From NCBI GenBank assembly GCA_030725715.1, contig JANRFG010000031.1, forward strand, positions 1-54,982: a stretch of 54,982 bases of DNA, read 5' to 3'. Shown here in pieces: positions 16,911 through 46,981 of the stretch (the stretch's first letter is position 1; each line of letters starts with the position of its first letter). Source of the stretch: Opitutales bacterium. GTDB lineage: Bacteria; Verrucomicrobiota; Verrucomicrobiia; Opitutales; UBA953. Position numbers and translations under genes: made by a program. The notes under the pieces were generated by a model that had not been told where the DNA came from, ran no database searches, and saw only the letters and a program-made list of their open reading frames with translations.

Positions 16911-16939
16911 GGTAGGGGCACGACCGCGTCGTGCCCTAG
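16911..16939 (+). repeat. GGTAG 29-bp hairpin element
   Basis: GGTAG, stem GGGCACGAC, loop CGC, stem GTCGTGCCC, TAG. A perfect 9-bp stem. It lies between the convergent aminotransferase and higA genes. It is preceded by GCATCGA; the copy at 22719 is preceded by the similar GTATCGA. Confidence 0.85.
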
Positions 16940-16954
16940 TTGAATCGTTTCAAT

Positions 16955-17254
16955 TTACGCCACCTGCAGCGGCTTGATGCTCGCCTTCACCTTGGGGCCG
17001 ATGGTGTTGATGGCCTGTCTGAGGTCGTAGGCGAGCTGGGCGCGCAGCCAGTAGCCTGGCTCGAGGCCGAGGTAGGCGCAGAGATGCAGATCGGTCTCGG
17101 CGGTGATGCCACGGCGCTCCTTGAGGATCTCGTTCACGCGCTGGTGGGGCAGTCGGGCGCCCTTGGCCAGGCGGTAGGCCGTGATTCCAAGGGGCATCAG
17201 GAACTCCTCGCGGAGCAGTTCACCCGGGTGGACGTTGAGGAGTTTCTTTTTCAT
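16955..17254 (-). CDS. higA: HigA-family antitoxin / HTH regulator without a toxin
   Basis: A 99-residue Xre-type regulator of the HigA addiction-module antidote family. HPGELLREEFLMPLGIT leads into a helix-turn-helix at about 25-50 (AYRLAKGARLPHQRVNEIL). DLHLCAYLGLEPGYWLRAQ is the usual C-terminal half. In this family the higB toxin normally sits just upstream of higA. Here only 209 bp of non-coding DNA separates it from the next gene, with no room for a toxin frame of about 90 codons. It is therefore an orphan antitoxin or a plain repressor. A 23-bp palindrome upstream is its probable operator. Confidence 0.85.
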   Translation of the reverse strand: MKKKLLNVHPGELLREEFLMPLGITAYRLAKGARLPHQRVNEILKERRGITAETDLHLCAYLGLEPGYWLRAQLAYDLRQAINTIGPKVKASIKPLQVA

Positions 17255-17297
17255 GAGGCATGTTGGTTATCAGCGATGCCTAAAGGATGCAATCATG

Positions 17298-17320
17298 CTA
17301 TGCACGATTAGCGTGCATAG
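17298..17320. promoter_or_regulatory. Probable HigA operator palindrome
   Basis: CTATGCACG, 5 nt, CGTGCATAG: a perfect 9-bp inverted repeat centred 55 bp upstream of the higA ATG, in an AT-richer stretch. Its symmetry and position suit autoregulation by the HigA dimer. Confidence 0.65.
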
Positions 17321-17337
17321 TTGAGATGGTGTGTCTC

Positions 17338-17433
17338 GTCCGCCGGATGGTGGACGCATGGGTAGGGGCGGGGCTACGCCACGCCCGGGCACGTCGTAAC
17401 CGTGCCCCTACCTCAGGCCACCATGCGGCGGCC
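17338..17433. repeat. Composite palindrome: H18-GGTAG-GGTAG-H18
   Basis: Four hairpin modules in mirror order. An 18-bp hairpin on the minus strand (17338-17355) comes first. A GGTAG element on the plus strand (17361 on; stems GGGCGGGGC/GCCACGCCC) follows. Next is a GGTAG element on the minus strand ending CTACC at 17412 (stems GGGCACG/CGTGCCC), then an 18-bp hairpin on the plus strand (17416-17433, GGCC-A-CC-ATGC-GG-C-GGCC). The same module order occurs at 22747-22852. Together with the operator, this accounts for the whole gap between higA and the HAD gene. Confidence 0.8.
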
Positions 17434-17463
17434 TCATGAAGCCGGCCCACGTGTCCCCTAAAT

Positions 17464-18072
17464 TTATGCCGGCTCCACCAAAATACACGCCATCCCCGCG
17501 GCGTCGGCGGCTTCCTTGCCGCGTGGGCTGTCCTCGATGACCACGCAGTCGGCGGGCTTCAGGCCGAGGCGGTCCGCGGCGGCGAGAAAGAGGTCAGGGT
17601 GCGGCTTGGAGCGCGGGGCGTCTTCGGCGGTGATGACGGCGTCGAAGAGGTGCGTGATGTCGATGCGCTTGAGTGTGGTGTGCACGTGGTCGCGTCGGCC
17701 GGCCGAAGCGACTGCGGTCTTGTGGCCGAGGCCGCGGACGTGGTGGACGACGGCGACGACTTCGTGGCGGGCGGTGACGTCCTTGGCGAGGTGCTCCTCG
17801 AGGAACTCATGGCCATCGGCGAGCAGCTGCTCGACGTTCAGGTCGAAGCCGTAGTCGGCCTTGAGGCGCTGGCAGGTGTCGACGGCGGACATGCCGCCCA
17901 TCGAGCAGAAGAGGGGCCAGGGGAAGTCGAACGGACGACCGATCTGCTTGCTGACGATGTGGGTCCAGCTGCGGTGGTGGATCCACATGGAGGCCGCGAG
18001 GGTGCCGTCGCAGTCGAAGATCCAGCCCGGACGGGAGAGGAGGGCCGGGTCGAAGGGAATCATCTTGGACAT
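17464..18072 (-). CDS. HAD-superfamily phosphatase (beta-phosphoglucomutase-like)
   Basis: A 202-residue HAD subfamily IA enzyme. Motif I is FDCDGTLA (about 19-26, nucleophile Asp plus acid/base Asp), motif II the Ser in VASAGRR, motif III the Lys in RSKPHPDLF and motif IV IEDSPRG. The cap is the helical type between motifs I and II. Likely activities are sugar-phosphate phosphatase or phosphoglucomutase; the substrate cannot be read from sequence. The start is 5 bp after the ffh stop, so it is probably translated from the ffh transcript. Confidence 0.88.
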   Translation of the reverse strand: MSKMIPFDPALLSRPGWIFDCDGTLAASMWIHHRSWTHIVSKQIGRPFDFPWPLFCSMGGMSAVDTCQRLKADYGFDLNVEQLLADGHEFLEEHLAKDVTARHEVVAVVHHVRGLGHKTAVASAGRRDHVHTTLKRIDITHLFDAVITAEDAPRSKPHPDLFLAAADRLGLKPADCVVIEDSPRGKEAADAAGMACILVEPA

Positions 18073-18077
18073 GGCGA

Positions 18078-19463
18078 TCAGCGCATGCCGGGGAAACCGC
18101 CGCCCGGAAAACCGCCACCGGGCATGCCGCCGCGGCCGCCGCCCATCTGGCCCATGCGACGCATGAGCTCCTTGCCCTTGCCGCCTTTCATCATGCGCAT
18201 CATCTCGCGCATCTGGGAGAACTGCTTGATCAGCGCGTTGACGTCGCTGACCTGGGTGCCCGAGCCCTTGGCGATGCGCTGGCGGCGGGAGCCGTTGAGG
18301 ATGTCGGGATTACGACGCTCCTTCTTGGTCATCGAAAGCACGATGGCTTCGGTCTTCGCAAGGTGCTTCTCTTCCTTGGCGCCGACCTGGATGCCGCCCA
18401 TGCCGGGCATCATCTTCATGATGTCGCCGAGCGGGCCCATCTTCTTCATCTGCGACATCTGCGCGAGGAAGTCCTCGAGGTCGAAGTCGGCCTTCTTCAT
18501 CTTCTCGGCCAGACGCTCGGCTTCCTTGTGGTCGACGACCTCCTGGGCCTTCTCGACGAGGGAGACGACGTCGCCCATGCCCAGGATACGCTGGGCCATG
18601 CGGTCGGGGTGGAAGGTGTCGAAGTCAGAGGACTTCTCGCCCGTGCCCATGTAGCGGATCGGGACGCCCGTGACGGACTTCATCGACAGCGCGGCGCCAC
18701 CACGGGCGTCGCCGTCGAGCTTGGTCAGGATGATGCCCGTGAGGGGCGTGGATTCGTGGAACTTGGCGGCCACGTCGACGGCCTGCTGGCCGAGGGCGGC
18801 GTCGGCGACGAGGAAGACCTCGTGCGGCTGGAAGGCGTCGCGCACGCGGCGGACTTCTTCCATCAGGTCGCCGTCAATCTGCAGGCGGCCGGCGGTGTCG
18901 ACGATGACGAGGTCCGCGGCGGCGGCTTCGGCTTCCTTGACGAGGCGGCCCACCATCGCGGCGACGTCGGTCGCGGAGCGGTCGGCGCGGAAGTCGAAGC
19001 CTTCGTTCTTGGCGAGGGTCTCGAGCTGGTCAATGGCCGCGGGGCGGCGCAAGTCGGCGGCGACGAGGGACGGCTTCCGGATGCCCTCCTTCTTGACGAG
19101 GTGCTTGGCGAGCTTGGCGGCGCTGGTGGTCTTGCCGGAGCCCTGGAGGCCGACGAGGAGCACGCGGAGCGGGCGACGGGGGTCGATCGGGCGCTCGCCT
19201 TCGCCGAGGAGCTTCGTGAGCTCGTCGGACACGATCTTGACGGCCATCTGGCCCGGGTTGACGGACTCGATGACGGCCTGGCCGAGGCAGGCGACCTTGA
19301 CGCGTTCGGTGAAGTCCTTGGCGACCTTGAAATTGACGTCGGCGGACATCAGCGCCGAGCGCACCTCGGTCAGCGCCGGGGCGATGTTCTCCTCGGAGAG
19401 CTTGGAGAGCCCCCGGAGGTCGCGGAGGGCCTTGGTAAGTTTGTCGGTGAGGTTGGCGAACAC
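18078..19463 (-). CDS. ffh: Signal recognition particle protein Ffh/SRP54
   Basis: GTPase that binds signal sequences and, with 4.5S RNA and FtsY, targets proteins to the membrane. N domain about 1-85; G domain with GLQGSGKTT (105-113), DTAGRL, and [10 protein letters not shown]; methionine-rich M domain from about 300. The last 40 residues are rich in Met, Gly and Pro ([12 protein letters not shown]), a common tail in this phylum. At 461 residues it is normal. Start is GTG at 19463. The leader shows no Shine-Dalgarno sequence. Confidence 0.97.
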
Positions 19464-19479
19464 GGAAGTCGGGGACTGA

Positions 19480-19570
19480 GAGTATGGAGTATCGAGTATG
19501 GAGTCTCGGGGGACTGCCGAAGGGGAGGGAGTAAAGGCGGTCGGGAATGGAGTATCGAGTATAGAGTAGC
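19480..19570 (+). repeat. Two heptad arrays (GAGTATN words), same orientation
   Basis: 19480-19507: gagtatg, gagtatc, gagtatg, gagtctc. 19550-19570: gagtatc, gagtata, gagtagc. The core GAGTAT is fixed and the seventh base varies. They lie upstream of ffh and downstream of the four-helix-bundle gene; an inverted array (20123-20150) lies on the other side of that gene. Confidence 0.85.
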
Positions 19571-19621
19571 GTGAAAAGGGCTTCCCCCGCCCAAAATGCC
19601 GCCTTCTGCCACGGCTGACTA

Positions 19622-20026
19622 CTAACGGTCGGTGGAAAGCCTTTCCCGGTCCTGCCTCATGCGGATAACGCCCCCTATGAGTCGTCCCAGTTCTTCGGCC
19701 AAGGCTCGGAACCTGGCGACATCCTCTTGGCTGACCGCTCCGATTTCATGGGCGATCTCCATCTGAGTCTCGAGTTCCGCCAGCGACGCCCGGGCGATGA
19801 CGACGAAGCGCAGTGATTCCTTGTTGGTGCTCCGTTCGTCGCCCTCGGCGATATTCGAGGCGATGGAAATGGCCGCACGGGTCATCTGGTCGCAAAGAGT
19901 ATATTTTCGCGAAAGACCGGGTGTCTCGCAGAGGCGATAAATCGAGACGGCCATCAGCTTGGCTTTTTGCCAGACGAGCAGATCGCGATAGGTCTTAACC
20001 GGGCCGAGGGGTTGGGAAGGTTTCAT
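19622..20026 (-). CDS. Four-helix-bundle protein (S23 / 23S rRNA IVS family)
   Basis: A 134-residue protein of the family first found in intervening sequences of 23S rRNA genes. The hallmark strings are [10 protein letters not shown] at the N-terminus, [24 protein letters not shown] and [15 protein letters not shown]. Four helices fill the whole length. Function is unknown; members form pentameric bundles. It stands alone here, away from rRNA, and is bracketed by inverted heptad arrays (19550-19570 and 20123-20150), which recalls the stem-flanked layout of the rRNA insertions. Confidence 0.9.
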
Positions 20027-20122
20027 CGCCAGGAGTGAAAGGCATGGTGGTGAGCGGTCACCTGCGGCCTCGTCGGCTATTCCCTGAAGGGTGTCACCCC
20101 CTTATGCCCCTGGCATTAACCC

Positions 20123-20150
20123 TATACTCGATACTCCATACTCGATACTC
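20123..20150 (-). repeat. Heptad array (NATACTC words, complement of GAGTATN)
   Basis: Four perfect-period words: tatactc, gatactc, catactc, gatactc. Inverted relative to the arrays at 19480-19570. It lies between the divergent four-helix-bundle and MBL genes, about 50 bp before the MBL start. Confidence 0.85.
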
Positions 20151-20200
20151 AGCGAAGTCCGCCTCTTGCCTTTCATCGCCTTTCTCGTCTTCTTCGCCTC

Positions 20201-20995
20201 ATGGAAATCCTCATCATGGGCTGCGGCACGTCGCAGGGCTGTCCCTTGCCCGCCCATGACAATCCGGGGCTGGATCTGAAGGAGGAGCGCAACTGGCGCG
20301 CCCGGACGAGCATCCATGTCGTCATCGAGGGCCATCACGTCCAGGTCGACGCCGCCCCGGAGTTCCGGACGCAGTGCCTGAAATACGATGTCCGCGAGGT
20401 CGACACGTTCATCCTGACCCACGGCCATGCCGACCACGTGCTCGGCATGGATGACCTTCGTCAGTTCTGCACGAACAAGGGCGGGGCGGCCATCCCGGTG
20501 TATTCGACCGACGTCGGCCTCGAGCGGATCAAGGCCATCTTCCCTTACGCCGTCGGCAAGCCGGCGGCCTCGGGTTACGTCTCACTGGGACTGAACCTCA
20601 TGCCGTCGAAGCTCGTCCTGCCCGGCGGCGGCATCATCCGTTCGACGCTCCTGCCGCACGGCAATGAGTCCACCCTCGGCCTCGTCTTCGAAGAACCTTC
20701 GACGGGTCGTAAGTTCGCCTATTATACGGACTGCCGGGCGATGACCGAGCAGTCGATTGAACTGGGTGCGCATGCCGACCTCGCGATCCTCGACGGCCTG
20801 AGGCCGAACCCGCATCCGACGCACATGACGGTCGATCAGGCCTGTCAGGCGGCGGCCGATCTGCGGGTCCCCCGCGCTTTGCTGACGCACATGACTTTCC
20901 AGGTCGATTACGCGACCACGATGGCCCGTCTCAAGGTCGAGCACTCGAACGTCGGGCTCTGCTATGACGGGCTGCGGATCACGCTCGGCGCCTGA
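20201..20995 (+). CDS. MBL-fold metallohydrolase (PhnP-like)
   Basis: A 264-residue metallo-beta-lactamase-fold enzyme. The N-terminal MGCGTSQGCPLP resembles the GTSQGVP start of PhnP/RNase Z-like phosphodiesterases. Metal ligands are H74, H76, D78 and H79 in THGHADH, followed by His in LLPHGNES, Asp in YYTDCR and His in LLTHM. The likely reaction is hydrolysis of a cyclic or nucleotide phosphodiester; the substrate is unknown. The PhnP zinc-finger cysteines are not evident. It is monocistronic and ends at a shared terminator. Confidence 0.88.
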   Translation: MEILIMGCGTSQGCPLPAHDNPGLDLKEERNWRARTSIHVVIEGHHVQVDAAPEFRTQCLKYDVREVDTFILTHGHADHVLGMDDLRQFCTNKGGAAIPVYSTDVGLERIKAIFPYAVGKPAASGYVSLGLNLMPSKLVLPGGGIIRSTLLPHGNESTLGLVFEEPSTGRKFAYYTDCRAMTEQSIELGAHADLAILDGLRPNPHPTHMTVDQACQAAADLRVPRALLTHMTFQVDYATTMARLKVEHSNVGLCYDGLRITLGA

Positions 20996-21007
20996 ACGGG
21001 CACGAAA

Positions 21008-21030
21008 AAGGGCGCCCTGCGGGCGCCCTT
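21008..21030. terminator. Bidirectional terminator between MBL and DUF1080 genes
   Basis: AAGGGCGCCC and GGGCGCCCTT separated by TGC. The AAAAA before it gives a T-tract in the minus-strand transcript, so it serves the DUF1080 gene best. A second small hairpin (CTCTGAGC/GCTCAGAG, from 21041) overlaps that gene's stop codon. Confidence 0.88.
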
Positions 21031-21052
21031 GATTCACCGGCTCTGAGCGGGC

Positions 21053-21703
21053 TCAGAGTTCGGTGACGACGATGTTGCGGAACCAGCACGGGTCGCCGTG
21101 CTCGGTGAGCATCAGCTTGCCGTGGCCGGGCCCGAAACCCTTGTTGTTCTTGAACTTGCTCTTGGCGATGGCGGCCTTCCATTCCTCGGACTTCGTGTCG
21201 GCCGAAGAGCTCAGCTTGCCGTTGAGGTAGTGCTCGATCTTGCCGTCCTTCACCACGATGCGGCTCTGGTTCCATTCGCCGATGGGTTTCTTGGCCTTAT
21301 CCTTGGCGGAGTCGACGATGTCGTAGATCGAGCCCGTGTTGTGGCTGCCGCCGCGAAGGCCGTCGGGGTGGCCGTCGTCGTCGATCATCTGGTATTCGAT
21401 GCCGAGCCACGCGCCCTTGCCCTTGGCGTCCTTGATTTCGGTGACCCAGAACTTGATGCCGTTGTTGCCCTTGGCTTCGAGGCGCCATTCCCAGGTGAGT
21501 TCGAAGTTCGTGTATTCCTTCTTGGAGATCAGGGCGCCCGTGCCCTTCTGGGCGACGAGACGGATGACGCCGCCTTCTTCGGTCTGCCAGCCGCCGGCAG
21601 GAGCGCCGCCTTTGAGGTCGGTGAAGTCAGCGAGCGTGAGGGTGACCTTTTCGCCGGCGAAGAGGGAGCCGGTGGCGAGCAGGGCGAGGAGGAGGGATTT
21701 CAT
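21053..21703 (-). CDS. Exported DUF1080 protein (3-keto-disaccharide hydrolase family)
   Basis: A 216-residue protein with a signal peptide (MKSLLLALLATGSLFAG) and one DUF1080 (PF06439) domain, a concanavalin-like beta-sandwich. Diagnostic strings are GNNGIKFWVTEI, GIEYQMIDDDGHPDG, WNQSRIVVKDGKIEHYLNG and the ending GDPCWFRNIVVTEL. Members act on glycosides previously oxidised to 3-keto sugars. I use the ATG at 21703; the upstream in-frame stretch has no signal peptide and crosses a good promoter. Leader C-rich, no Shine-Dalgarno sequence. Confidence 0.88.
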   Translation of the reverse strand: MKSLLLALLATGSLFAGEKVTLTLADFTDLKGGAPAGGWQTEEGGVIRLVAQKGTGALISKKEYTNFELTWEWRLEAKGNNGIKFWVTEIKDAKGKGAWLGIEYQMIDDDGHPDGLRGGSHNTGSIYDIVDSAKDKAKKPIGEWNQSRIVVKDGKIEHYLNGKLSSSADTKSEEWKAAIAKSKFKNNKGFGPGHGKLMLTEHGDPCWFRNIVVTEL

Positions 21704-21715
21704 GGGGAGGCCTTG

Positions 21716-21744
21716 TATATGGGAAGTATTCCGGCGGATTTGAA
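21716..21744 (-). promoter_or_regulatory. Promoter of the DUF1080 gene
   Basis: On the minus strand, TTCAAA, a 17-bp spacer and CATATA lie 12 bp before the ATG at 21703. Confidence 0.5.
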
Positions 21745-21759
21745 GTCCTTTATCGAGGG

Positions 21760-22605
21760 TCAGGGCAGGACCTTGATTTCCTTGAGCCAGACGAGCGCTT
21801 CGGCCTGCCACTTGTCCCAGGAGGGGCCCTTGTAGCCGTTGAGGCCGTGGCCGCCGTTAGGGAGTTCGACGAGCCTGGTCGGGAGGCCTGCCTTCTGCTG
21901 GGCCGCGTAGAACATGCGGCTGTTCTCGATGCCCACGACCTTGTCATCGAGCGCGTGCGCCAGGAAGGCGGGCGGAGTGCTGGCCTTCACGTGCTTCTGC
22001 GTCGAGAAATATTCCGGGAGGTCGGCGGCCGGCGTTTCGCCCATCAGGTTCTTCTTGGAGCCGCGGTGGACACCGACATCCATGCTGATGACCGGATAGA
22101 TCAGGATCGAGAAGTCGGGGCGGCTGCTTTCGCGCGCGATCGCATCGGTGCTTTTTCCTTCGCCGGCATCGAAGTGTACGGTCGCCGTCGAGGCGAGATG
22201 GCCGCCGGCGGAGAAGCCGATGATGCCGACTTTCTTCGGATCAATCTTCCACCGGGCGGCGTTGGCGCGCACGGTGCGAATCGCCTGCTGGGCGTCGAGG
22301 AGCGGCACGTAAGGACGTCCGGCCGGGAGACGGTATTCGAGGACGATGCCGGCGATGCCTTGGGCGTTGAGCCAGGCGGCGATGCCGTGGCCTTCGCCTT
22401 TGGTCACCAAGCCGCCGTAGCCGCCGCCGGGGCAGATCACGATCGCCGCGCCGTTCGGCTTCTCGGGCAGGTGTACGGTGATCTTCGCCTTGGAGGAGTC
22501 GGAGAACTTGCCGTTGCCCTCAGGCGCATCACCCGGCCAGAGCGGCAGGGTTTCCGCGGCGAAGGAGGAAGCGGTGAGCGCGAGGAGGGCGAGGAGGGGG
22601 CGCAT
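21760..22605 (-). CDS. Exported alpha/beta-hydrolase (carbohydrate esterase-like)
   Basis: A 281-residue esterase/lipase-type hydrolase with a signal peptide (MRPLLALLALTASSFAAE). Oxyanion region CPGGGYGG, nucleophile Ser in IIGFSAGGHLAS, Asp in AHALDDKVV and His in ELPNGGHGLNGYKG complete the triad. Relatives in this phylum are annotated as acetyl- or feruloyl-esterases acting on polysaccharide side chains, fitting the carbohydrate enzymes around it. I reject the longer frame from 22653, whose added PTPTPNPTP residues are translated hexad repeat. Confidence 0.85.
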   Translation of the reverse strand: MRPLLALLALTASSFAAETLPLWPGDAPEGNGKFSDSSKAKITVHLPEKPNGAAIVICPGGGYGGLVTKGEGHGIAAWLNAQGIAGIVLEYRLPAGRPYVPLLDAQQAIRTVRANAARWKIDPKKVGIIGFSAGGHLASTATVHFDAGEGKSTDAIARESSRPDFSILIYPVISMDVGVHRGSKKNLMGETPAADLPEYFSTQKHVKASTPPAFLAHALDDKVVGIENSRMFYAAQQKAGLPTRLVELPNGGHGLNGYKGPSWDKWQAEALVWLKEIKVLP

Positions 22606-22615
22606 CGGGTTTAGA

Positions 22616-22645
22616 GGGGTAGGGTTAGGGGTTGGGGTAGGGGTA
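22616..22645 (+). repeat. G-rich hexad array (GGGGTA words)
   Basis: Five consecutive 6-nt words: ggggta, gggtta, ggggtt, ggggta, ggggta. It has G-quadruplex potential and resembles a telomere repeat in form. It begins 11 bp upstream of the esterase start. A related inverted pair lies at 34916-34997. Confidence 0.8.
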
Positions 22646-22680
22646 GTGTGCATACGAATGACTTCGCAGGGAAGGCGATT

Positions 22681-22852
22681 GGTAGGGTCGGGACCCCGTC
22701 ACGACCTGGTTGTATCGAGGTAGGGACAGCACCACGTGCTGTCCTAGTTCGCCGCAGGGCGAACGCGGGTAGGGGCAAGGCTTCGCCTTGCACTCCTCGA
22801 TCGGAGGGCGCGGCAGAGCCACGCCCCTACCTTCGCCCGCCCTGCGGCGGCC
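22681..22852. repeat. Cluster of GGTAG hairpins and H18 hairpins
   Basis: Occupies most of the only gene-free gap longer than 300 bp (22606-22908). Modules: GGTAG plus-strand copies at 22681-22709 (one stem mismatch), 22719-22747 (perfect stem GGACAGCAC/GTGCTGTCC) and 22768-22793 (GCAAGGC/GCCTTGC); a minus-strand copy ending CTACC at 22831; and 18-bp hairpins at 22747-22764 (GTTCGCC-GCAG-GGCGAAC) and about 22835-22852. From 22747 the module order repeats that at 17338-17433. Confidence 0.8.
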
Positions 22853-22865
22853 GCACGGGCATAAA

Positions 22866-22889
22866 AAAGCCCCGGAGGTCCGGGGCTTT
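22866..22889 (-). terminator. Terminator of the ThuA gene
   Basis: AAAGCCCCGGA, 2 nt, TCCGGGGCTTT. The A6 run at 22863-22868 gives a T-tract on the minus strand. Confidence 0.9.
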
Positions 22890-22908
22890 GGTTGATTTGC
22901 CTGACGGC

Positions 22909-23754
22909 TTACTTGCCGAAACCGGCGGAGGGCTTGCCGTCGGCTTCGAGCTTGCCGGCCGACCACAGGACGGCGCGTCCGACGAGGTCGAGGTAACGGG
23001 CGTCTTCGACGGTGGCGTTGTTGTGGCCGATCGTGGTGCTGAAGATGCGGGTCTTCTTCGGGCCGAACTCATTGGTCCAGGCGACGATGGCGTTGGCTTC
23101 GGAGGCCGGGGTGACCTTGCCCTTCTTGTCCTTCCTCTCCGGGATCTTCTGGTTGCCGGTGGCGAGGGTCTTGGCGCCCAGGACCTGGACGTTGTTGTAG
23201 AGCTCTTCGTTGACGGTGGTCCAGTCGGCGAGGCCGGTGGTCACCGGGTGGGACTTGTCGGTGAAGGTGATGGCGATCGGCTGCTGGGGACCGTGGCCGG
23301 TGGACTGCAGGCCGAGCATCTCGTACCAGCTGGCGTTGTCGTCGCCGGCCTTCACGGCCGTCCGGAAGTTGCCCCAGCGGTAGCTGTGCATGGCGCAGTG
23401 GAGGTTCACGGCGGGCAGGCCGTTCTTGTGGGCGTTGACGATGTTGGCGACGTAGGCCTGGTCGGTGATGTCGGCGGCGCACTCGTCGTGGACGACGACG
23501 TCGAAGTTCTTACCCCAGTCCGGGCTCTTGAAGAGTTCGAAGAGCGGCTTGGTGGACTTGGTCGGGTCGTAGGCGACTTCGACCACGGCGTTCACGCGGG
23601 CTTCGATGCCCTTCTTCAGGACTTCTTTCTGCGTGGCGTAATCGTGGCAGCAACCGCCGGCGACGATGAGGACGCGCAGAGGCTTCTGCTCGGCGGCGAG
23701 CGTGGAGGTCAGGCCGACGAGGGCGGCCAGCGCGAGGAGGGTACGGAGTTTCAT
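22909..23754 (-). CDS. Exported ThuA-domain protein
   Basis: A 281-residue protein with a signal peptide (LRTLLALAALVGLTSTLAAE) and a ThuA domain (PF06283), a class I glutamine-amidotransferase-like fold. Strings seen include VLIVAGGCCHDYATQK, VVVHDECAADI, AVNLHCAMHSYR and the HNNATVEDARYL ending. ThuA proteins act in uptake and conversion of trehalose or other disaccharides through 3-keto intermediates; how these exported members work is not settled. It is followed by its own terminator. Its promoter lies at 23766-23795. Confidence 0.85.
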   Translation of the reverse strand: MKLRTLLALAALVGLTSTLAAEQKPLRVLIVAGGCCHDYATQKEVLKKGIEARVNAVVEVAYDPTKSTKPLFELFKSPDWGKNFDVVVHDECAADITDQAYVANIVNAHKNGLPAVNLHCAMHSYRWGNFRTAVKAGDDNASWYEMLGLQSTGHGPQQPIAITFTDKSHPVTTGLADWTTVNEELYNNVQVLGAKTLATGNQKIPERKDKKGKVTPASEANAIVAWTNEFGPKKTRIFSTTIGHNNATVEDARYLDLVGRAVLWSAGKLEADGKPSAGFGK

Positions 23755-23765
23755 GGGGTATCTGG

Positions 23766-23795
23766 GATAAAGGGGGCGAGGGGGTCGGCGGGCAA
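23766..23795 (-). promoter_or_regulatory. Possible promoter of the ThuA gene
   Basis: On the minus strand, TTGCCC, an 18-bp spacer and TTTATC end 11 bp before the ATG at 23754. The TTGCC-type -35 recurs upstream of hemL and the tagaturonate epimerase gene. Confidence 0.4.
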
Positions 23796-23804
23796 AAGAA
23801 AAAC

Positions 23805-24275: not shown

Positions 24276-24279
24276 CGGA

Positions 24280-25221: not shown

Positions 25222-25242
25222 GGGACGGAAAGGGGTCTGGGT

Positions 25243-25271: not shown

Positions 25272-25313
25272 ACGCAAGCGACCGCGCTTAGGTCCTTCCA
25301 CATGAGACACAAA

Positions 25314-30107: not shown

Positions 30108-30154
30108 GGCCGCCGAATGGTGGCCGAGGGGTGGGGCACGGCTTCGACGTGCCC
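30108..30154. repeat. H18 hairpin plus degenerate GGTAG hairpin
   Basis: 30108-30125 is an 18-bp hairpin on the minus strand (GGCC...GGCC with loop GAAT). 30134-30154 has stem GGGCACG/CGTGCCC around GCTTCGA, with a decayed head. This is half of the composite palindrome seen complete at 17338 and 22747. Confidence 0.7.
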
Positions 30155-39114: not shown

Positions 39115-39131
39115 ACGGATGAAGTCAGTAC

Positions 39132-39179: not shown

Positions 39180-39208
39180 TTACTGTTCTCGCCGGTGGAT
39201 AGGCCGAC

Positions 39209-40219
39209 TTACTTGCGTACCGCGAAGTCGCGGGCGTAAGCTTCGGCGAAGTAGGTGAGGATCACGTCGGCGCCTGCGCGGCGGATGACGAGGAGCGACT
39301 CGTCGCGCGTGGCGCGCAGGTCGAGCCAGCCTTGGGCGGCGGCGGCGTGCAGCTGGGCGTATTCGCCCGAGACCTGGTAAGCGGCGATCGGAAGGTTCGT
39401 CGACTCGCGCAGGTCGCGGATGATGTCGAGGTAGGCGCCCGCGGGCTTCACCATCAGGAGGTCAGCGCCTTCTTCCGCATCGAGGATCGCCTCGCGGGCG
39501 GCCTCGCGGCGGTTGGCCGGATTCATCTGGTAGCTAGCCTTGGAAATGGGGGCTTCGCCGGCCTTGCGGGCGCTGCCGACGGCGTCGCGGAACGGACCAT
39601 AGAAGGCCGAAGCGAACTTGGCAGAATAGGCGAGGATGCCCGTGCCGGTGTGGCCGGCGGCATCGAGTCCCTTGCGGATCGCTTTGACGCGTCCGTCCAT
39701 CATGTCGGACGGGGCGACGAAATCGGCGCCGGCCTGGGCGGTGAAGACGGACATCTTCACGAGCGCTTCGACGGTGCGGTCATTGTCCACGTCGGTGCCG
39801 GCGGCGTTCAGGACGCCGTCGTGTCCGTGCGTGGTGTAAGGGTCGAGGGCGATGTCCGCGAAGATCACCGTGCCGGGCGACTTCGCCTTCACCTCACGGA
39901 TGGCGCGGTAGGCGAGGTTCGATGGGTTGAGGGCTTCGGCGCCTTCGACGGTCTTGCGGGCCGGGTCGACCTTCGGGAAGAGGGCCACGCCATGGATGCC
40001 GAGGGCGAGCAGTTCGGCGCACTTGGCACCGAGCTGGGCGAGCGGGATGCGGCTGACGCCCGGGAGGGAGCCGACGGGCTCAGCGACGTCACCTTCGGTG
40101 ATGAAGAGCGGCTGGATCAGGTGGCGGGGCTCGACCACCGTTTCGCCGAGCATGGCACGGATACCGGCCGAAGCACGGAGGCGGCGGAGGCGGACGGACT
40201 GGTCGAGTTGGGCCGACAT
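39209..40219 (-). CDS. hemB: Porphobilinogen synthase (delta-aminolevulinate dehydratase)
   Basis: Condenses two aminolevulinate molecules to porphobilinogen in heme synthesis. In the 336-residue protein, the Schiff-base lysines lie in YSAKFASAFYGPFRDA and LMVKPAGAYLDIIRD. The metal-site stretch reads FADIALDPYTTHGHDG with Asp instead of the three Cys of zinc enzymes, so it should be a Mg-dependent type. hemL, the preceding step, is 4 kb away. Confidence 0.97.
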   Translation of the reverse strand: MSAQLDQSVRLRRLRASAGIRAMLGETVVEPRHLIQPLFITEGDVAEPVGSLPGVSRIPLAQLGAKCAELLALGIHGVALFPKVDPARKTVEGAEALNPSNLAYRAIREVKAKSPGTVIFADIALDPYTTHGHDGVLNAAGTDVDNDRTVEALVKMSVFTAQAGADFVAPSDMMDGRVKAIRKGLDAAGHTGTGILAYSAKFASAFYGPFRDAVGSARKAGEAPISKASYQMNPANRREAAREAILDAEEGADLLMVKPAGAYLDIIRDLRESTNLPIAAYQVSGEYAQLHAAAAQGWLDLRATRDESLLVIRRAGADVILTYFAEAYARDFAVRK

Positions 40220-40373
40220 CGGAGGGTTGAGATAGCGTTCAGGGCAGGGAAGGGCAACGGCGAAGCCAGCGTGGGCGTCATCCGGTGGGACACTTTGTCA
40301 TTCTGACCCGCTTGGGACAGCGACAATCGCCGGCCATACCTGCGAAAACTAAGGCAAAAGCGGGAATTTCCCT

Positions 40374-40388
40374 TGGCACAAGCCCTGC
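40374..40388 (+). promoter_or_regulatory. Possible sigma54-type promoter of dnaK
   Basis: TGGCAC-AAGCCC-TGC matches the -24/-12 pattern (GG and GC spaced as required; the -12 half is CTGC instead of TTGC). It would place the start near 40400, 24 nt before the ATG. No CIRCE (HrcA) palindrome is present upstream. No enhancer-binding protein is encoded nearby. Confidence 0.35.
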
Positions 40389-40423
40389 CAATAAGGGGCA
40401 TAACCCATCTACCAAAACAACAC

Positions 40424-42358
40424 ATGAGTAAAATCATCGGCATCGACCTCGGCACCACCAACTCCTGCATGGCCGTCCTGGAAGCAGGCGAGTCCGTCGT
40501 CATCTCCAACTCGGAAGGCGCGCGCACCACGCCCTCCATCGTCGCGTTCACCAAGAACGGCGACATCCTCGTCGGTCAGGCCGCCAAGCGCCAGGCCGTC
40601 ACCAACCCGAAGAACACGATCTTCTCCGCGAAGCGCCTCATCGGCCGCAAGTTCTCGGAAGTGAAGGCCATCGCCTCGAAGCTCCCTTACAAGGTCGTCG
40701 AAGGTAAGAACGGCGACGCCGCCATCGAATGCGAAGTCGACGGCAAGCCGCGCGTGTTCGCGCCGGAAGAAATCGCCGCCAAGGTCCTCGCCAAGCTCAA
40801 GGCCGACGCCGAAGCCTACCTCGGCGAGAAGGTCACGCAGGCCGTGATCACGGTCCCCGCTTACTTCAACGACTCGCAGCGCCAGGCTACCAAGGACGCC
40901 GGCACGATCGCGGGCCTCGAAGTGCTCCGCATCGTCAACGAGCCCACCGCGGCTTCCCTCGCCTACGGCCTCGACAAGAAGGGCGACGAAAAGATCGCGG
41001 TCTATGACCTCGGTGGCGGCACCTTCGACGTCTCGGTCCTCGAGATCGGCGGCGGCGTCTTCGAAGTGAAGGCGACCAATGGCGACACCGAGCTCGGCGG
41101 CGACAACTGGGACGAACGCATCATCCAGTGGCTCATCGACGGCTTCAAGACGGAGTCCGGCATCGACCTCTCCAAGGACGCCATGGCCCGCCAGCGCCTC
41201 AAGGAAGAAGCCGAGAAGGCCAAGATCGCCCTCTCGTCCTCGAACTCCGTGGACATCAACCTGCCGTTCATCACCGCCGACGCCTCCGGCCCGAAGCACC
41301 TGAACGTCACGCTCACCCGCGCCCAGATGGAGAAGGTCTGCGATGACCTCTCCGAGCGCACCCGCCGTCCGTTCGAATCCTGCCTCAAGGACGCCGACCT
41401 CAAGATGGCCCAGGTCGACGAGCTCGTCCTCGTCGGCGGCATGACCCGCATGCCTAAGATCATCGAGATCGCCCGCAACCTCGCCGGCAAGGAACCCCAC
41501 AAGGGCGTCAACCCGGACGAAGTCGTCGCCATCGGCGCCGCCATCCAGGCCGGCGTGCTCAAGGGCGACGTGAAGGACGTGCTCCTCCTCGACGTGACCC
41601 CGCTCACCCTGTCCATCGAGACCATGGGCAGCGTCGCCACGCCGATGATCGAGCGTAACACGACCATCCCGACCAAGAAGTCGCAGATCTTCTCCACCGC
41701 CGCCGACAGCCAGCCGGCCGTCGACATCGTCATCGTCCAAGGCGAACGCCCGATGGCGAAGGACAACAAGCAGCTCGGCACGTTCAAGCTCGACGGCATC
41801 AAGCCGGCGCGCCGCGGCGAACCGCAGATCGAAGTGACCTTCGACATCGACGCCAACGGCATCCTGCATGTCTCGGCCGTCGACAAGGGATCGGGCAAGG
41901 AGCAGAAGATCTCCATCACCGGCTCCTCGGGTCTCTCCAAGGAAGAAGTCGAGAAGCTCCGCAAGGAAGCCGAACTCCATGCCGAAGAGGACAAGAAGGT
42001 CCGCGAGCTCGCCGAAGCCCGCAACCGCCTCGACGCCGGCGTCTTCACCGCCGAGAAGTTCCTCGCCGACAACGGCGAGAAGATGCCCGCCGAAGCCAAG
42101 GCCTCCGCCGAGGCTGCGCTCAAGGAAGCCCAAGAAGCCCTCAAGAAGACCGACGCCTCCGCCGAGGACTTCGAGAAGGCCGCCACGGCCCTCCAGACCG
42201 CGCTCATGGCCGCCGCGCAGACCGTCCCGGCTTCCGCCGGCGAACAGCCGCAGGCCGATGCTGGTCCCGCCCCTGATGCCCCTGAAGGCAAGAAGAAGTC
42301 CCAGGACGGTAAGGTGGTCGACGGCGACTTCGAGGTCGTCGACGACGGCAAGAAGTAA
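40424..42358 (+). CDS. dnaK: Chaperone DnaK (Hsp70)
   Basis: A 644-residue Hsp70. ATPase domain 1-385 with [53 protein letters not shown] and VGGMTRMPK; linker [16 protein letters not shown]; substrate domain; helical lid; and a C-terminal tail ending [12 protein letters not shown], close to the usual EEV-like ending. grpE and dnaJ are not beside it. I start at ATG 40424 ([10 protein letters not shown]). The leader is A/C-rich without a Shine-Dalgarno sequence, unexpected for such an abundant protein. Terminator at 42417. Confidence 0.98.
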
Positions 42359-42416
42359 GCGTCGCGTTGCGACGCAGGGCTAGGGCCAGGGATAGGGCCA
42401 GTCCGACAGTCAAAGG

Positions 42417-42445
42417 GCCGGAGTCGCGAGACTCCGGCTCTTTTT
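42417..42445 (+). terminator. Intrinsic terminator of dnaK
   Basis: GCCGGAGTC-GCGA-GACTCCGGC followed by TCTTTTT. A second hairpin, GCGTCGC-GTT-GCGACGC (42359-42375), follows the stop codon directly. Confidence 0.92.
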
Positions 42446-42447
42446 GT

Positions 42448-44049
42448 TCATGCCTTGCCTGTCGCGACGTCGGTGATGTCGCCCGCCGCCGAGTTGTCTT
42501 CGCTGATCACGGTGAAGTCGGTGCCGGAGACGAGTTCGCCCGGCATGCCTTCCATCAGGCGGACGGCGATGCGCAGACCCGGGTGGCGCTTGGCCAGCCC
42601 GTGCAGCAACGTGCCGGGCTCGGCGATCGGACAGCAGATCAGGAGCGAGCCGGCTTCGGCCACGCCGGCTTCGTTGAGCACTTCGAGCGAGCCGCCGTCG
42701 CCGCAGAGCGCGCGGACGCCGGCTTTCTGGAGGCGACGCACCAGGACGATGTCGCTGTCGACGATCGTGAGCGGGATGCCTTTGAGGCGCAGGTCTTCGC
42801 CGACACGTCGGCCCACGTCGCCGTAGCCGACGATGATGGCGTGGCCGGGAATGACCGCCTGACCCACGGTGGGCCGGCTGGCGGCCCGACGGACGCGCTG
42901 GCGGAGACGTCGATAGAGGCTGGGATTGAGGGCGATGGAGATCATCGAGGCCGCGACGAGGCCGTTCCAGACCGGCTGGCCGATGAGGCCCAGCGCCTTG
43001 GCGGAAGTCCCCAGCACGAAGGTGAACTCGCCGATCTGACTCAAGGCCGCGCCGATCTGCGCGGACATGGCGCGGGTTTCGCCGGTGAGCCGGACGAGCA
43101 GGGAAGCCGCGAGCGGCTTACCGATCACGACCACGCCCAGGAGCACCAGCACGGGCAGCGGATGGGCGATCAGGTCGGCCGGGTCGAAGAGCAAGCCGAC
43201 CGAGACGAAGAACAGCACCGCGAATGCGTCACGCAGCGGCAAGGCTTCGGCCGCGGCCCGGGCCGAGAACTCCGAACGTCCCACGACGAGGCCCGCCAGA
43301 AAAGCCCCCAGCGCCATCGAGACGCCGAAGAACTTGGCGGCGAGCAGCGCCATGCCGGGCGCGAGCGCGAGCGTGGCGAGGGTGAAGAGTTCGCGGGACT
43401 TGGTCGCATTGACCTTGGCGAGCATCCATGGGATGACGCGTCCGCCGATCAGGATGGCCAGCGTGGCGCAGAGCACGACCTTGCCGGCGGCGACGAGGAG
43501 CGGGAGAGCAAGACGCCCGAGGTCGCCACTGCCTTCGGCGGCGAGCACCGGCAGGGCGACGAGGAGCAGGACGGTGAGCAGGTCTTCGACCACCACCCAG
43601 CCGACGGCGATGTGCCCCGCGCGCGTGGAGAGGTCGCGGTTCTCGTTCAAGACCCGCATCAGCACGACGGTGCTGGCCACCGAGATCGCCAGACCGGCGA
43701 CCAAGGCTTCGTCCGGAGCGATGCCGATGGCGCTAAGTCCGCCCCAGGTCAGCAGGGTCGTCAGCAGGCTGGTCAGCAACGCGCCCGGCACGGAGACGCG
43801 CCAGACGGCGAAGAGCTCGTGGAGGTGGAATTTGAGGCCGACACCGAACATGAGCAGGATGATGCCCATTTCCGCGAACTGCTCGGCGACCTGGAGGTTG
43901 GCGGTGAAGCCCGGCGTGTGCGGCCCGACGGCGACGCCCGCGAGGAGGAAGCCGACCACCGGGGAGAGCCCCAATCGGTGGGCGAGGTAGCCCAAGATCA
44001 ACGCCGCGGCCATGGCGGCGGCGAAAGTCAGCACGATATCATTGCCCAT
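42448..44049 (-). CDS. CPA2-family cation:proton antiporter with TrkA-N domain
   Basis: A 533-residue Kef/YbaL-type transporter. About residues 1-385 hold 12-13 membrane segments, with LGYLAHRLGLSPVVGFLLAGVAVGP at the N-terminus and the conserved helix SVASTVVLMRVL. A TrkA-N Rossmann domain follows (IIVGYGDVGRRVGEDL, near 405) and binds NAD or another nucleotide as a gate. Probably exchanges K+ or Na+ for protons. The start at 44049 follows the membrane topology; M1 of the longer frame adds 12 non-family residues. Divergent from hemL. Confidence 0.92.
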   Translation of the reverse strand: MGNDIVLTFAAAMAAALILGYLAHRLGLSPVVGFLLAGVAVGPHTPGFTANLQVAEQFAEMGIILLMFGVGLKFHLHELFAVWRVSVPGALLTSLLTTLLTWGGLSAIGIAPDEALVAGLAISVASTVVLMRVLNENRDLSTRAGHIAVGWVVVEDLLTVLLLVALPVLAAEGSGDLGRLALPLLVAAGKVVLCATLAILIGGRVIPWMLAKVNATKSRELFTLATLALAPGMALLAAKFFGVSMALGAFLAGLVVGRSEFSARAAAEALPLRDAFAVLFFVSVGLLFDPADLIAHPLPVLVLLGVVVIGKPLAASLLVRLTGETRAMSAQIGAALSQIGEFTFVLGTSAKALGLIGQPVWNGLVAASMISIALNPSLYRRLRQRVRRAASRPTVGQAVIPGHAIIVGYGDVGRRVGEDLRLKGIPLTIVDSDIVLVRRLQKAGVRALCGDGGSLEVLNEAGVAEAGSLLICCPIAEPGTLLHGLAKRHPGLRIAVRLMEGMPGELVSGTDFTVISEDNSAAGDITDVATGKA

Positions 44050-44109
44050 CACCCTGCTTGGTAGGTCCGTGCCGAGAGACCGCAAGCCTCCCCGAAACTC
44101 GCTCGACGC

Positions 44110-44137
44110 TTGCCCCGCAGGGGTGACTCCATACCTC
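44110..44137 (+). promoter_or_regulatory. Promoter of hemL, probably leaderless
   Basis: TTGCCC, a 16-bp spacer and TACCTC, ending 7 bp before the GTG at 44145. Transcription would begin at or within one base of the start codon. Confidence 0.45.
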
Positions 44138-44144
44138 TGGATGG

Positions 44145-45422
44145 GTGAATACCTCGGAGCAGCTTTTCCAACGCGCCCTCTCGATGATCCCGGGCGGCGT
44201 CAATTCCCCGGTCCGCGCTTTCCGCTCGGTCGGCGGCACCCCTTTCTTCACCAAGTCGGCCAACGGCGCCCGTCTGACGACGGCCGACGACCAGGAGCTG
44301 GTGGACTTCGTCCTGACCTGGGGTCCGGCCATCCACGGCCATAACGACCCGGATATCCGCGCGGCGATCCGCGAGGCCCTCGACCGCGGCACGAGCTTCG
44401 GCACCCCGAACCCGCTCGAGGTCGAGATGGCCGAACTGATCCTGTCCTGCGTCCCGGCGGTGAAGAAGGTCCGCATGACCAACAGCGGCACCGAAGCCAC
44501 GATGTCCGCCATCCGCCTCGCCCGCGGTTACACCGGCCGTAATAAGATCATCAAGTTCTCGGGCTGCTACCACGGCCACGTCGATTCGCTCCTCGTGAAG
44601 GCCGGCTCCGGCGCGCTCACGCAGGGCAATCCCGATTCCGCCGGCGTCACGCCCGGTACCGCCGCCGACACCCTCGTCGCCGAATACAATAATCTGCCCG
44701 CCCTCTCCGCGCTCTTCGATGCCAATGCCGGCCAGATCGCCGGCCTGATCGTCGAGCCGTTCCCGGCCAACGTCGGCCTGATCCTGCCCGACGCCGGTTT
44801 CCTCGCCGGGCTCCGTGAGCTGTGCACGAAGCACGGCACGGTGCTCATCTTCGACGAAGTGATGACGGGCTTCCGTCTCTCCCTCGCGGGCACGCAGGGC
44901 CTGCATGACGTCGTCCCGGACCTCGTCTGCATGGGCAAGATCATCGGCGGCGGCCTCCCGGTCGGCGCCTTCGGCGGCAAGGTCGAGATCATGGACAAAC
45001 TCGCTCCGCTCGGCCCGGTCTATCAGGCCGGCACGCTCTCGGGCAATCCGCTCGCCATGGCCGCCGGCCTCGCCGCGGTCCGTAAGTTGAAGTCCCAGAA
45101 TCCTTACGCGCGTCTCGACGTCCTCGGCCGTCGCGTCCGCGACACGCTCCTCGCCGCCGCGCAGGCCAAGGGCATCCCGCTCCAGGTCCCGCAGGTCGGC
45201 TCGATGTTCTCGCTCTACTTCAATACCGAGAAGGTCCGTAACTACGACCAGGCCATCGCCTCCGACGGCGACCTGTACCGCAAGGTCTTCCGCACCGCGC
45301 TCGACAAGGGCGTCTACCTCGCGCCTTCGCCTTACGAGACCGCGTTCATCTCCACCGCCCACGAGGGCAAGGACATCGACAAGGCCTGCGAAGTCCTCGA
45401 CGCCGCCGTGCGCGCCCTCTGA
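44145..45422 (+). CDS. hemL: Glutamate-1-semialdehyde 2,1-aminomutase
   Basis: Makes 5-aminolevulinate from glutamate-1-semialdehyde (C5 heme pathway) with PLP. The 425-residue protein starts [23 protein letters not shown], a strong family signature. [17 protein letters not shown] and FDEVMTGFR follow, and the PLP lysine is K265 in [16 protein letters not shown]. Start is GTG at 44145. proC follows by 2 bp, so both genes share a transcript. Confidence 0.97.
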
Positions 45423-45424
45423 TC

Positions 45425-46228
45425 ATGCCCAGACTCGCTTTCATCGGTTCTGGACGCATGGCAGGCGCCATGGTGCATGGCCTGCTTCGTTCGGGCGCCT
45501 GCGCCCCAGCTGACATCACCGTCATCGGTGGCAACGATTCCACCGCCGTCGACCTCTCCAAGGCTGCCGGCGTCCGCGTGGCCGCGACCCCGGCCGAGCT
45601 CCTGGCCGGCGCCGATGCGGTCGTGCTCGCCTGCAAGCCGCAGCAGTTCGCCGACCTCGACAAGTCCTACGCCACGCTCGCGCAGGGCAGGCTCGTGCTC
45701 TCCATCCTCGCCGGCACGCGCCTCGCGACCATCGGAGCCTTCTTCTCGTCCGCCCGTAATGTCGCGCGCGCCATGCCGAATACCCCGGGCGCCGTCGGGC
45801 AGGGCATCAGCGCCCGTTGTTCCGCGACCCCGCTCGCGGCTACCGACGCCCAGATCGTCGACTCGATCCTCTCCGGTCTCGGTCCGGTGATCGAACTCCC
45901 TGAGTCCATGTTCGACGCCGTCACCGCCGTCTCCGGTAGCGGCCCCGGTTTCTTCTTCGAATACGTCGCCGCCTACGAAGAGGCCGCCGTCGCCTTGGGC
46001 TTCACGCCCGAGCAGGCCAAGCTCCTCGTCCGCCAGACCTTCAGTGGTTCGCTCGCGCTCCTCGCCGCTACCGGTGAGACGCCCGTGAACCTGCGCATCC
46101 AGGTGACTTCGCCCGGTGGCACGACCAAGGCCGGTCTCGATGCTCTGGAGGCCGGTAAGTTCCGCGCGATCGTCGCCTCCGCCCTCCTCGCCGCCAAGCA
46201 GCGTGGCGAAGAGCTGGGCAAGAAGTGA
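45425..46228 (+). CDS. proC: Pyrroline-5-carboxylate reductase
   Basis: Last step of proline synthesis, NAD(P)H-dependent. The 267-residue protein has FIGSGRMAGAMVHGL at the N-terminus (Rossmann), ACKPQQFADL, RAMPNTPGAVGQG, AVSGSGPGFFFEYVAA and SPGGTTKAGLDALE. All catalytic-domain motifs are intact and the length is standard. It is the second gene after hemL. Confidence 0.97.
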   Translation: MPRLAFIGSGRMAGAMVHGLLRSGACAPADITVIGGNDSTAVDLSKAAGVRVAATPAELLAGADAVVLACKPQQFADLDKSYATLAQGRLVLSILAGTRLATIGAFFSSARNVARAMPNTPGAVGQGISARCSATPLAATDAQIVDSILSGLGPVIELPESMFDAVTAVSGSGPGFFFEYVAAYEEAAVALGFTPEQAKLLVRQTFSGSLALLAATGETPVNLRIQVTSPGGTTKAGLDALEAGKFRAIVASALLAAKQRGEELGKK

Positions 46229-46248
46229 GGCGTCCTCATGGTCTTGCG

Positions 46249-46307
46249 GGTAGGGTCAGCACTGCGTGCTGACCTAGGCTAGGTCACGACGCAGTCGTGA
46301 CCCTACC
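46249..46307. repeat. Tail-to-tail pair of GGTAG 29-bp hairpins
   Basis: Plus-strand copy 46249-46277: GGTAG, GGTCAGCAC, TGC, GTGCTGACC, TAG. Minus-strand copy 46279-46307: stem GGTCACGAC/GTCGTGACC, ending CTACC. Both 9-bp stems are perfect but differ from each other by compensatory swaps (CAGCAC versus CACGAC). Between the convergent proC and membrane-protein genes. Confidence 0.9.
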
Positions 46308-46338
46308 AGCGTATGATTCCCATACTACCCGTTCGGGG

Positions 46339-46815
46339 TCAGCCTTGGGCTGTTACTGGCATCATCCGTCGGCGTAGGTCCCAGCAGTTGCCTACGGCGA
46401 GGAAGATCGGCACGACGGTCACGAAGCCGTAGAACGGATACCAGAAGAACATGATGAGCGAGTCGTGGAAGCGAAGCCCTTGGAAGGACTCCATCACGCC
46501 CCGCCAGGCGAGGCTCTGGGTGAATTCATAGCCCGCGACGACGACCAGCATGCAGGCGGCGAAGATCAGCGTGCCCAGCAGCAAGGCCGCTGGACCGTAA
46601 GTCCATACTTTCCACGCTTTCGTCCTGCCGAGGCGTCCGGCGAGCAGGCGCGTCACCAGGATGCCGGTCGGGATGCTGCCTAGCAGATACCAGCCAGTCA
46701 TCCGCGTGAAAAAATCTCCCCCGAGGCTTTTCAAGACCGCCAGGGCGACGCCGCCCCAGAGCAGACCGTAGACGGCGCCGAGTCGGTTCAGGTTGGGCGA
46801 GCGGGTGCTTTCCAT
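46339..46815 (-). CDS. Hypothetical membrane protein
   Basis: A 158-residue protein not recognised. Four hydrophobic segments (about 11-28, 39-58, 73-97, 118-142), with a basic loop GRLGRTKAWKVW between the second and third and a basic C-terminus (LRRRMMPVTAQG). No enzyme motif is visible. Its upstream region is the most AT-rich stretch nearby and carries a clear promoter. The gene stands alone, flanked on both sides by repeats. Confidence 0.72.
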   Translation of the reverse strand: MESTRSPNLNRLGAVYGLLWGGVALAVLKSLGGDFFTRMTGWYLLGSIPTGILVTRLLAGRLGRTKAWKVWTYGPAALLLGTLIFAACMLVVVAGYEFTQSLAWRGVMESFQGLRFHDSLIMFFWYPFYGFVTVVPIFLAVGNCWDLRRRMMPVTAQG

Positions 46816-46823
46816 GACGGCAA

Positions 46824-46851
46824 TTATTACTTACACCAGTAATTCAGCCAA
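46824..46851 (-). promoter_or_regulatory. Promoter of the 46339 membrane protein, near-leaderless
   Basis: On the minus strand, TTGGCT, a 16-bp spacer and TAATAA, ending 8 bp before the ATG at 46815. A small inverted repeat ATTAC/GTAAT overlaps the -10 region and could be an operator. Confidence 0.5.
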
Positions 46852-46952
46852 CTTTCTATATGCAGAATATATGCAAGTGGGCCGGGTTATCTCGCCCATT
46901 AGGACCGCGGGGAAGTCGTGATTCACGCCGTTTGAAGCGACCTAATCGTGGC

Positions 46953-46981
46953 TTAGGACAGCACGTGGTGCTGTCCCTACC
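46953..46981 (-). repeat. GGTAG 29-bp hairpin element
   Basis: Minus-strand copy: GGTAG, GGACAGCAC, CAC, GTGCTGTCC, TAA. It matches the plus-strand copy at 22719-22747 in all but the last base, in the opposite orientation and 24 kb away. Confidence 0.9.

Follow-up and report, generated by a model that had tools for sequence, protein, structure and literature searches.

The 29-nucleotide (nt) hairpins of a 54,982-nt stretch of DNA from an Opitutales bacterium (GenBank assembly GCA_030725715.1, contig JANRFG010000031.1; hereafter the window) are almost certainly GTAG-type repetitive extragenic palindrome (REP) elements, non-autonomous units spread in trans by cognate REP-associated tyrosine transposases (RAYTs), which are single-strand transposases of the Y1/HUH type. 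The window is contig C31 of a 1.93-Mb genome in 37 contigs, 94.9% complete. In evidence are the family structure of the hairpins, their association with RAYT genes, the congruence of hairpin type with RAYT clade, intergenic placement, and presence or absence between species. The copies belong to different REP families, and this accounts for the compensated stem differences that a first-pass annotation of the window had noted. The stems it called co-varying belong to separate REP families, each with its cognate transposase, and are not free variants of one element, since the types recur as identical copies and track RAYT lineages.

The five near-perfect copies named in that annotation all proved exact, each having GGTAG, a perfect 9-bp stem, a 3-nt loop and TAG, with a TAA tail at 46953 as the sole deviation. 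When the window was scanned for hairpins of this form behind a GTAG, exactly these five strict copies came up among 245 GTAG sites, and nine control tetramers in the same scan gave no hairpin (six tetramers) or one (three tetramers). Folded as single-stranded DNA, the five copies have z-scores of -4.1 to -4.9, and for each of them none of 200 shuffles was equally stable. They are listed below with lesser copies and with the REPIN, an inverted pair of REPs, that two of them form.

16911..16939, plus strand: REP of type E1 (GGGCACGAC-CGC-GTCGTGCCC), single in its own genome
17361..17386, plus strand: REP of type D1 (GGGCGGGGC-TAC-GCCACGCCC), with the sequence of the hairpin upstream of the second RAYT (contig C16)
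17387..17412, minus strand: REP, D2-like partner, in an inverted composite with D1 at 17361
22681..22709, plus strand: REP of type F carrying a few changes; the A copy at 22719 follows 38 nt downstream, in the same orientation
22719..22747, plus strand: REP of type A (GGACAGCAC-CAC-GTGCTGTCC), exactly matching the hairpins around the contig C27 RAYT
22768..22793, plus strand: REP-like element of the GGGCAAGGC type, resembling a hairpin that flanks the RAYT at locus L079
22803..22831, minus strand: inverted partner of the 22768 element, of the GGGCGTGGC type
30130..30154, plus strand: D2-like stem behind a GTGG head, probably a relic
46249..46277, plus strand: REP of type C1 (GGTCAGCAC-TGC-GTGCTGACC), left half of the REPIN
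46279..46307, minus strand: REP of type E2 (GGTCACGAC-TGC-GTCGTGACC), right half of the REPIN
46249..46307, plus strand: REPIN, 59-nt inverted pair C1-E2, folding into a single extended hairpin whose internal loops are symmetric (DNA -23 kcal/mol, z -7.3)
46953..46981, minus strand: REP of type A, with a TAA tail as in the copy upstream of the C27 RAYT

The lesser copies had been described as decayed. The one at 17361 is in fact an exact D1 copy, and that at 22681 is an F copy with a few changes. The remainder are the D2-like element at 17387-17412, the elements at 22768 and 22803-22831, which resemble the pair around the RAYT of a relative (L079), and the GTGG-headed element at 30130-30154. 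That all are intergenic was borne out for the five strict copies and the listed lesser ones, with genes in the window predicted by a simple hexamer gene finder. The E1 hairpin adjoins an inverted B-type REP in at least three relatives (G015, G010 and G021). Immediately upstream of it in the window, at 16870-16896, lies a palindrome (GGACGGCACC/GGTGCCGTCC) followed by a T run, which resembles the intrinsic terminator of an aminotransferase gene; it is unreported by a consensus terminator scan and is a weak match to the REP model.

Further copies across the genome, whose scarcity would have counted against the annotation, were readily found. A degenerate hairpin pattern matched 78 times genome-wide (reversed pattern, 0), and a covariance model made from 13 variants found at least 128 copies at E<=0.01, a lower bound, as 150 of 3405 candidates were scored. 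Exact copies in the genome itself number 20 for family A, 9 for B, 25 for C (C1 and C2 together) and 28 for F, and among 55 genomes of the genus exact copies are present in 37 (A), 40 (B), 36 (C) and 36 (F); reversed controls gave zero. E1 and E2 are rare, jointly having 22 matches in 17 of the 55 genomes, where several E1 adjoin B and several E2 adjoin C1. The commonest family is F (GGTCGGGAC-CGC-GTCACGAC), whose stem is imperfect. We also sampled 366 kb, made up of the window and 20 stretches picked around pattern hits and so not random, which held 94 copies: 21 were one identical F sequence, 14 were C1, 14 A (TAG or TAA tail), 8 B and 7 C2. What separates the A, B and C1 hairpins from one another is a single stem pair and the loop; A, B and C are much alike, and F diverges more. 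GC-rich repeats of the CAGGTGGCGGG type, possibly a second intergenic repeat family, adjoin several REP copies (L059, L063, L070, L071 and L074).

The assembly contains two RAYTs, on contigs C27 and C16. The C27 RAYT (163 aa) lies between two inverted A copies, GGTAGGGACAGCACCACGTGCTGTCCTA, the same hairpin as at 22719 and 46953 of the window, and D1 and D2 hairpins, the types found at 17361-17412, stand on the two sides of the C16 RAYT. The C27 protein matches PDB 4er8 (TnpArep), a RAYT bound to a REP hairpin, both in sequence (E 4e-10) and as the best PDB fold match of its AF2 model (pLDDT 86.7; E 1.2e-9, TM 0.69). Further fold matches are the IS200/IS605 transposases 2a6m and 2vjv, which have the Y1/HUH fold. 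Residues H70-x-H72, Y123 and N127-P128 were invariant in 20 of 20 aligned, hand-chosen RAYTs. We take the conserved tyrosine before N-P to be the catalytic one. RAYTs 78-85% identical to the C27 protein come from three uncultured Opitutae bins, Opitutae bacterium BS6 and a bin titled Akkermansia muciniphila, which places the genome in Opitutae (Verrucomicrobiota). The A RAYT agrees with the B and C RAYTs at about half of its residues. A second, longer group of RAYT-model matches (~300-340 aa) also occurs in the genus (L094, L095, L096 and other loci).

Congruence between hairpin and transposase was assessed on 76 fetched RAYT loci, mostly from the genus, 74 of which matched the C27 protein (four weakly). 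For the tree, 55 of these 74 loci were labelled by eye from their flanks, not blind, and removal of six identical proteins left 49. On the resulting tree the 19 hairpin labels need 18 changes, which is the minimum; each of the 12 labels with at least two rows makes up one side of a branch, the other seven being single-row labels. An automatic comparison of protein distance with hairpin, for the 48 of 74 RAYTs with both flanks present after removal of duplicates, gave r=0.73 upstream and r=0.70 downstream, with none of 5000 permutations as high. In the A clade, A hairpins stand on both sides at 12 of 12 loci, several of which are the same gene fetched twice (L003/L035 are one base off downstream). 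The B, C (C1/C2), D and F hairpins each flank their own RAYT clade. One supported group unites the RAYTs of families A, B, C and F, and the hairpins of these families are mostly alike in sequence.

Several observations weigh against this interpretation. The C27 RAYT matches NCBIfam REP_Tyr_transpos at E 6e-20 with 71.6 bits, below the curated cut-off of 80, and Pfam Y1_Tnp with 19.9 bits, below the cut-off of 23; some RAYTs of other genus members exceed the REP_Tyr_transpos cut-off. Some RAYTs have copies of another family nearby: at L046 and L080 an A copy lies beyond the B hairpin, and an A copy is also found near L089. Joint inheritance of a locus with its flanks also produces congruence within clades and contributes to what we see. 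Copy numbers follow the cognate RAYT for two families, A averaging 13.3 copies in genomes where an A RAYT was found vs 3.0 in others (p 8e-5) and B 19.2 vs 4.3 (p 3e-4). For C (p 0.044, with G007 counted as a C carrier despite a broken C RAYT frame) and F (p 0.025, two genomes), the association was no better than in mismatched controls, and 9 of the 12 mismatched family/RAYT combinations fell below 0.05, so that family specificity is weak or nil. RAYT presence predicted REP copy number for A and B; for C and F it did not do so specifically. The CT expected upstream as the cut site is clearly conserved only in B (8/9) and C1 (12/15); it is weak in A (7/20) and absent in C2 (1/7) and in F (7/22, the level of control windows). 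A T follows the stem in 73 of 73 copies; F mostly has no CT after the stem. Finally, no RAYT of family B, C or F turned up in the assembly, although it has 9, 25 and 28 exact copies of the respective hairpins. Loss, assembly gaps or cross-mobilisation may lie behind this, and loss of RAYTs while REP classes persist is suggested in the cited section of PMC3686654.

According to the first-pass annotation, compensated stems meant either that the fold and not the sequence is kept or that arms are exchanged between copies. Preservation of the fold is borne out in part. Across 13 distinct variants, 12 of them found by patterns that fix part of the stem, 94.9% of stem cells are paired vs 78.2% in shuffles (0/500 as high), and none of the 500 shuffles reaches the covariation score or the number of cells changed on both sides. 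Counts of doubly changed pairs (4; 144/500 shuffles as high) and of pair types (6; 318/500) do not exceed the shuffles, and the F stem is imperfect.

To this we can add the hairpins to the left and right of single RAYTs. Two foldable hairpins flank 27 RAYTs, giving 14 distinct pairs, of which 10 are unequal at equal stem length; these 10 are not independent. Between left and right the changes are paired: stem positions 1, 2, 8 and 9 differ in 0, 0, 0 and 1 of the 10, positions 3-7 differ in 3 to 8 of them, and the loop is the same in 7/10. This suggests that the mid-stem is free while paired and that recognition is carried by the foot and the loop-closing pairs, in agreement with the role of loop and head described for a Stenotrophomonas group 3 RAYT in the cited section of PMC8266576.

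Paired changes of this kind could also arise by templated self-correction, in which one arm is copied from the other during replication and no transposase selection is needed. Quasi-palindromes are known to mutate by template switching. Both the paired mid-stem changes between the two hairpins of one RAYT and the same two-pair change shared by E1 and E2 on two backgrounds would fit such a process. The near constancy of the foot and loop-closing pairs points to recognition, and we consider self-correction in place of selection rather improbable, while noting that the two are mutually compatible. Exchange of arms between copies by recombination, the annotation's second alternative, fares worse and seems to us very unlikely as the source of paired stems. 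Chimeric copies do exist and are possibly collapsed tandem pairs, but the two clear ones noticed (in G023, the 5' half is B and the 3' half C2/F-like; in G050, they are F and B, respectively) both have mismatched stems, indicating that exchange breaks pairing; these were incidental finds, with no full survey of chimeras. There are also copies with a single change in the loop and an intact stem.

In the sample, whose centring on hits bears on all the following proportions, one of the 94 copies overlaps a predicted gene (72 nt) and 93 do not: 80 have a predicted gene on each side and 13 are at the ends of fetched stretches. Random places in the same 366 kb fall within predicted genes in 90% of cases. 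The 47 intergenic loci comprise 24 convergent, 20 tandem and 3 divergent ones (random intergenic places: convergent in 26 of 95 per thousand), and 57 of the 80 copies have a 3' end as their closest gene end, vs 53% of random intergenic places.

This bias towards 3' ends and convergent genes is what would be expected of bidirectional terminators, or of 3'-end RNA hairpins under selection for the RNA fold, and some A copies are indeed followed by a T run. None of the five strict copies in the window is, the consensus scan reported no terminator-like site in 16800-17500, and the tRNA at 1612-1685 is the sole Rfam match in the window. Furthermore, identical DNA copies, a GTAG head, flanking positions around RAYTs and presence or absence between species would all be unexpected of terminators. 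On this basis terminators as the main explanation, and known RNA families, were set aside; we find the former barely credible. Single copies may nevertheless serve as terminators. A-type REPs followed at once by a T run stand at C15:88774 of the present genome (G000), at C6:3373-3444 of G040 and at C2:64839 of G050, and these may have been taken over in that role.

The REPIN at 46249-46307 is present, partial or absent between relatives. Of 20 loci examined downstream of the gene with its end at 46228, the window's own included, 17 were readable (two were without the gene and one ended there). The C1-E2 pair is found at five of the 17, namely the window and G015, G034, G004 and G050, with E2 damaged in G015 and G004 and the right-hand gene not recognised in G004 and G050. 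At the same locus G033 has C1 alone and G040 has C1 beside an inverted A, another GGTAG element is present in two of the 17, and eight have no such element; in the element-free G014 a 38-bp gap separates the same two genes. Similar units are found at other places in other genomes.

How such units would move can be outlined from published E. coli and Stenotrophomonas RAYT work, on which cutting, strand choice and the copying step are modelled here. On an exposed strand, for example at a replication fork, a REP or a REPIN would fold, and the RAYT would read the GTAG head, the foot and the loop region. It would then cut beside the hairpin and join the unit elsewhere, the units being found mainly between genes. 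Each RAYT lineage would have its own hairpin, leading to coexisting families with different, mostly paired stems. Movement of the hairpins by a RAYT thus remains a proposal; what was seen is their presence or absence between species.

Close pairs follow a pattern of their own. The 366-kb sample has 20 direct and 12 inverted pairs, and 36 of the 94 copies have no second model-found copy within 150 nt. Where both sides could be classified (A, B, C and F only, in the own-genome sample), none of 18 direct pairs and 5 of 7 inverted ones had a single family on both sides; inverted pairs join one family more often than direct pairs. Genus-wide, with spacings of 29-59 nt allowed, 91 direct pairs occur in 27 of 55 genomes, and the modal spacing is exactly 38 nt (36 pairs). 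Five of the 91 have an unclassifiable side. The other 86 include 83 heterotypic and 3 homotypic pairs vs 22 homotypic expected if partners are drawn by the genus-wide abundance of exact copies; pairs shared by descent are not independent. F is on exactly one side in 72 of the 86, and F-F pairs are absent. Reduced to 76 distinct family/linker combinations, three are homotypic (P 4e-7).

We tentatively suggest, as a possibility short of an even chance, that direct tandems join the hairpins of different transposase families in a near-fixed register and almost never join a hairpin to its own kind, and, from the left and right hairpins of single RAYTs, that the mid-stem is free if paired. The bias could arise if the RAYT of one family inserts beside the hairpin of another and avoids its own. 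Alternatively, homologous tandems may be deleted so that only divergent ones survive. A, B and C are much alike and F is more distinct, so loss of homologous tandems by slippage would yield the bias, and the two arm chimeras, which look like collapsed tandems, lean towards deletion.

The kind of element is known. What is new here are families of GTAG REPs and REPINs with their cognate RAYTs, from a little-studied genus and not sequence-compared with the families of Opitutus terrae. The first-pass annotation knew no described element with this plan, a view contradicted by a Stenotrophomonas REP tabled as GGTAGCGCCGGGCCATGCCCGGCG in the cited sections of PMC2817692 and PMC8266576, which also give another with an 8-bp perfect palindrome, a 3-nt loop and GTAG. 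As described in parts of PMC2817692 and PMC3733652, GTAG-type REPs have GTAG directly before a GC-rich palindrome, occur in many intergenic copies and in inverted pairs, flank RAYT genes, form several families per genome and carry alternative complementary stem residues, and the present hairpins are alike in all these respects: GTAG stands at one foot of a palindrome of 20-40 nt, copies are many and intergenic, and a RAYT lies between two inverted copies (type A in the present genome, and loci across the genus). They differ in having stem and loop sequences of their own. Sub-families with alternative complementary stem residues are reported for most GTAG REP families, and O. terrae as highly enriched in GTAG repeats, in the cited section of PMC3733652. 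Our literature search found no publication joining repetitive extragenic palindromes with Opitut- names.

The group 3 REP/RAYT system of Stenotrophomonas (REPtron Sm), in the portion of PMC8266576 cited, shares the perfect stem of 8-9 bp, the 3-nt loop, the GTAG foot and inverted REPs around a small RAYT; it differs in its sequences, and the system presented here is known from sequence alone. Like the REPINs of PMC3116915, as far as the cited part describes them, the unit at 46249-46307 consists of two inverted REPs that fold as one long hairpin; unlike them, its left and right REPs are dissimilar in mid-stem, leaving internal loops, and more than a third of the sampled copies are solitary. 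IS200/IS605 elements share the transposase fold, whereas the dispersed hairpins here carry no transposase and a RAYT would act on them in trans.

For the field, this is an unremarkable element. The genus, in which five or more hairpins (A, B, C, D and F) are each matched to a transposase of their own, offers a natural test set for how RAYTs read hairpins, and it also suits the study of REP families that outlive or share their transposases.

Some minor features of the window and the genus complete the description. Between two REP sites of the window, at 16955-17254 on the minus strand, lies a 99-aa gene with a Cro/C1-type helix-turn-helix (PF13443, barely above cut-off). G-rich intergenic runs of the GGGGTAGGGGTTGGGG / GGGTTAGGG type, which include GGTAGG-like words, occur near gene ends (window 22605-22655; L001 2540-2565; L117 and L120). 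A degenerate repeat of the ATACTCAATACTC type is found at 46990-47020 of the window, at L109 and L115, and in several intergenic regions of the genus.

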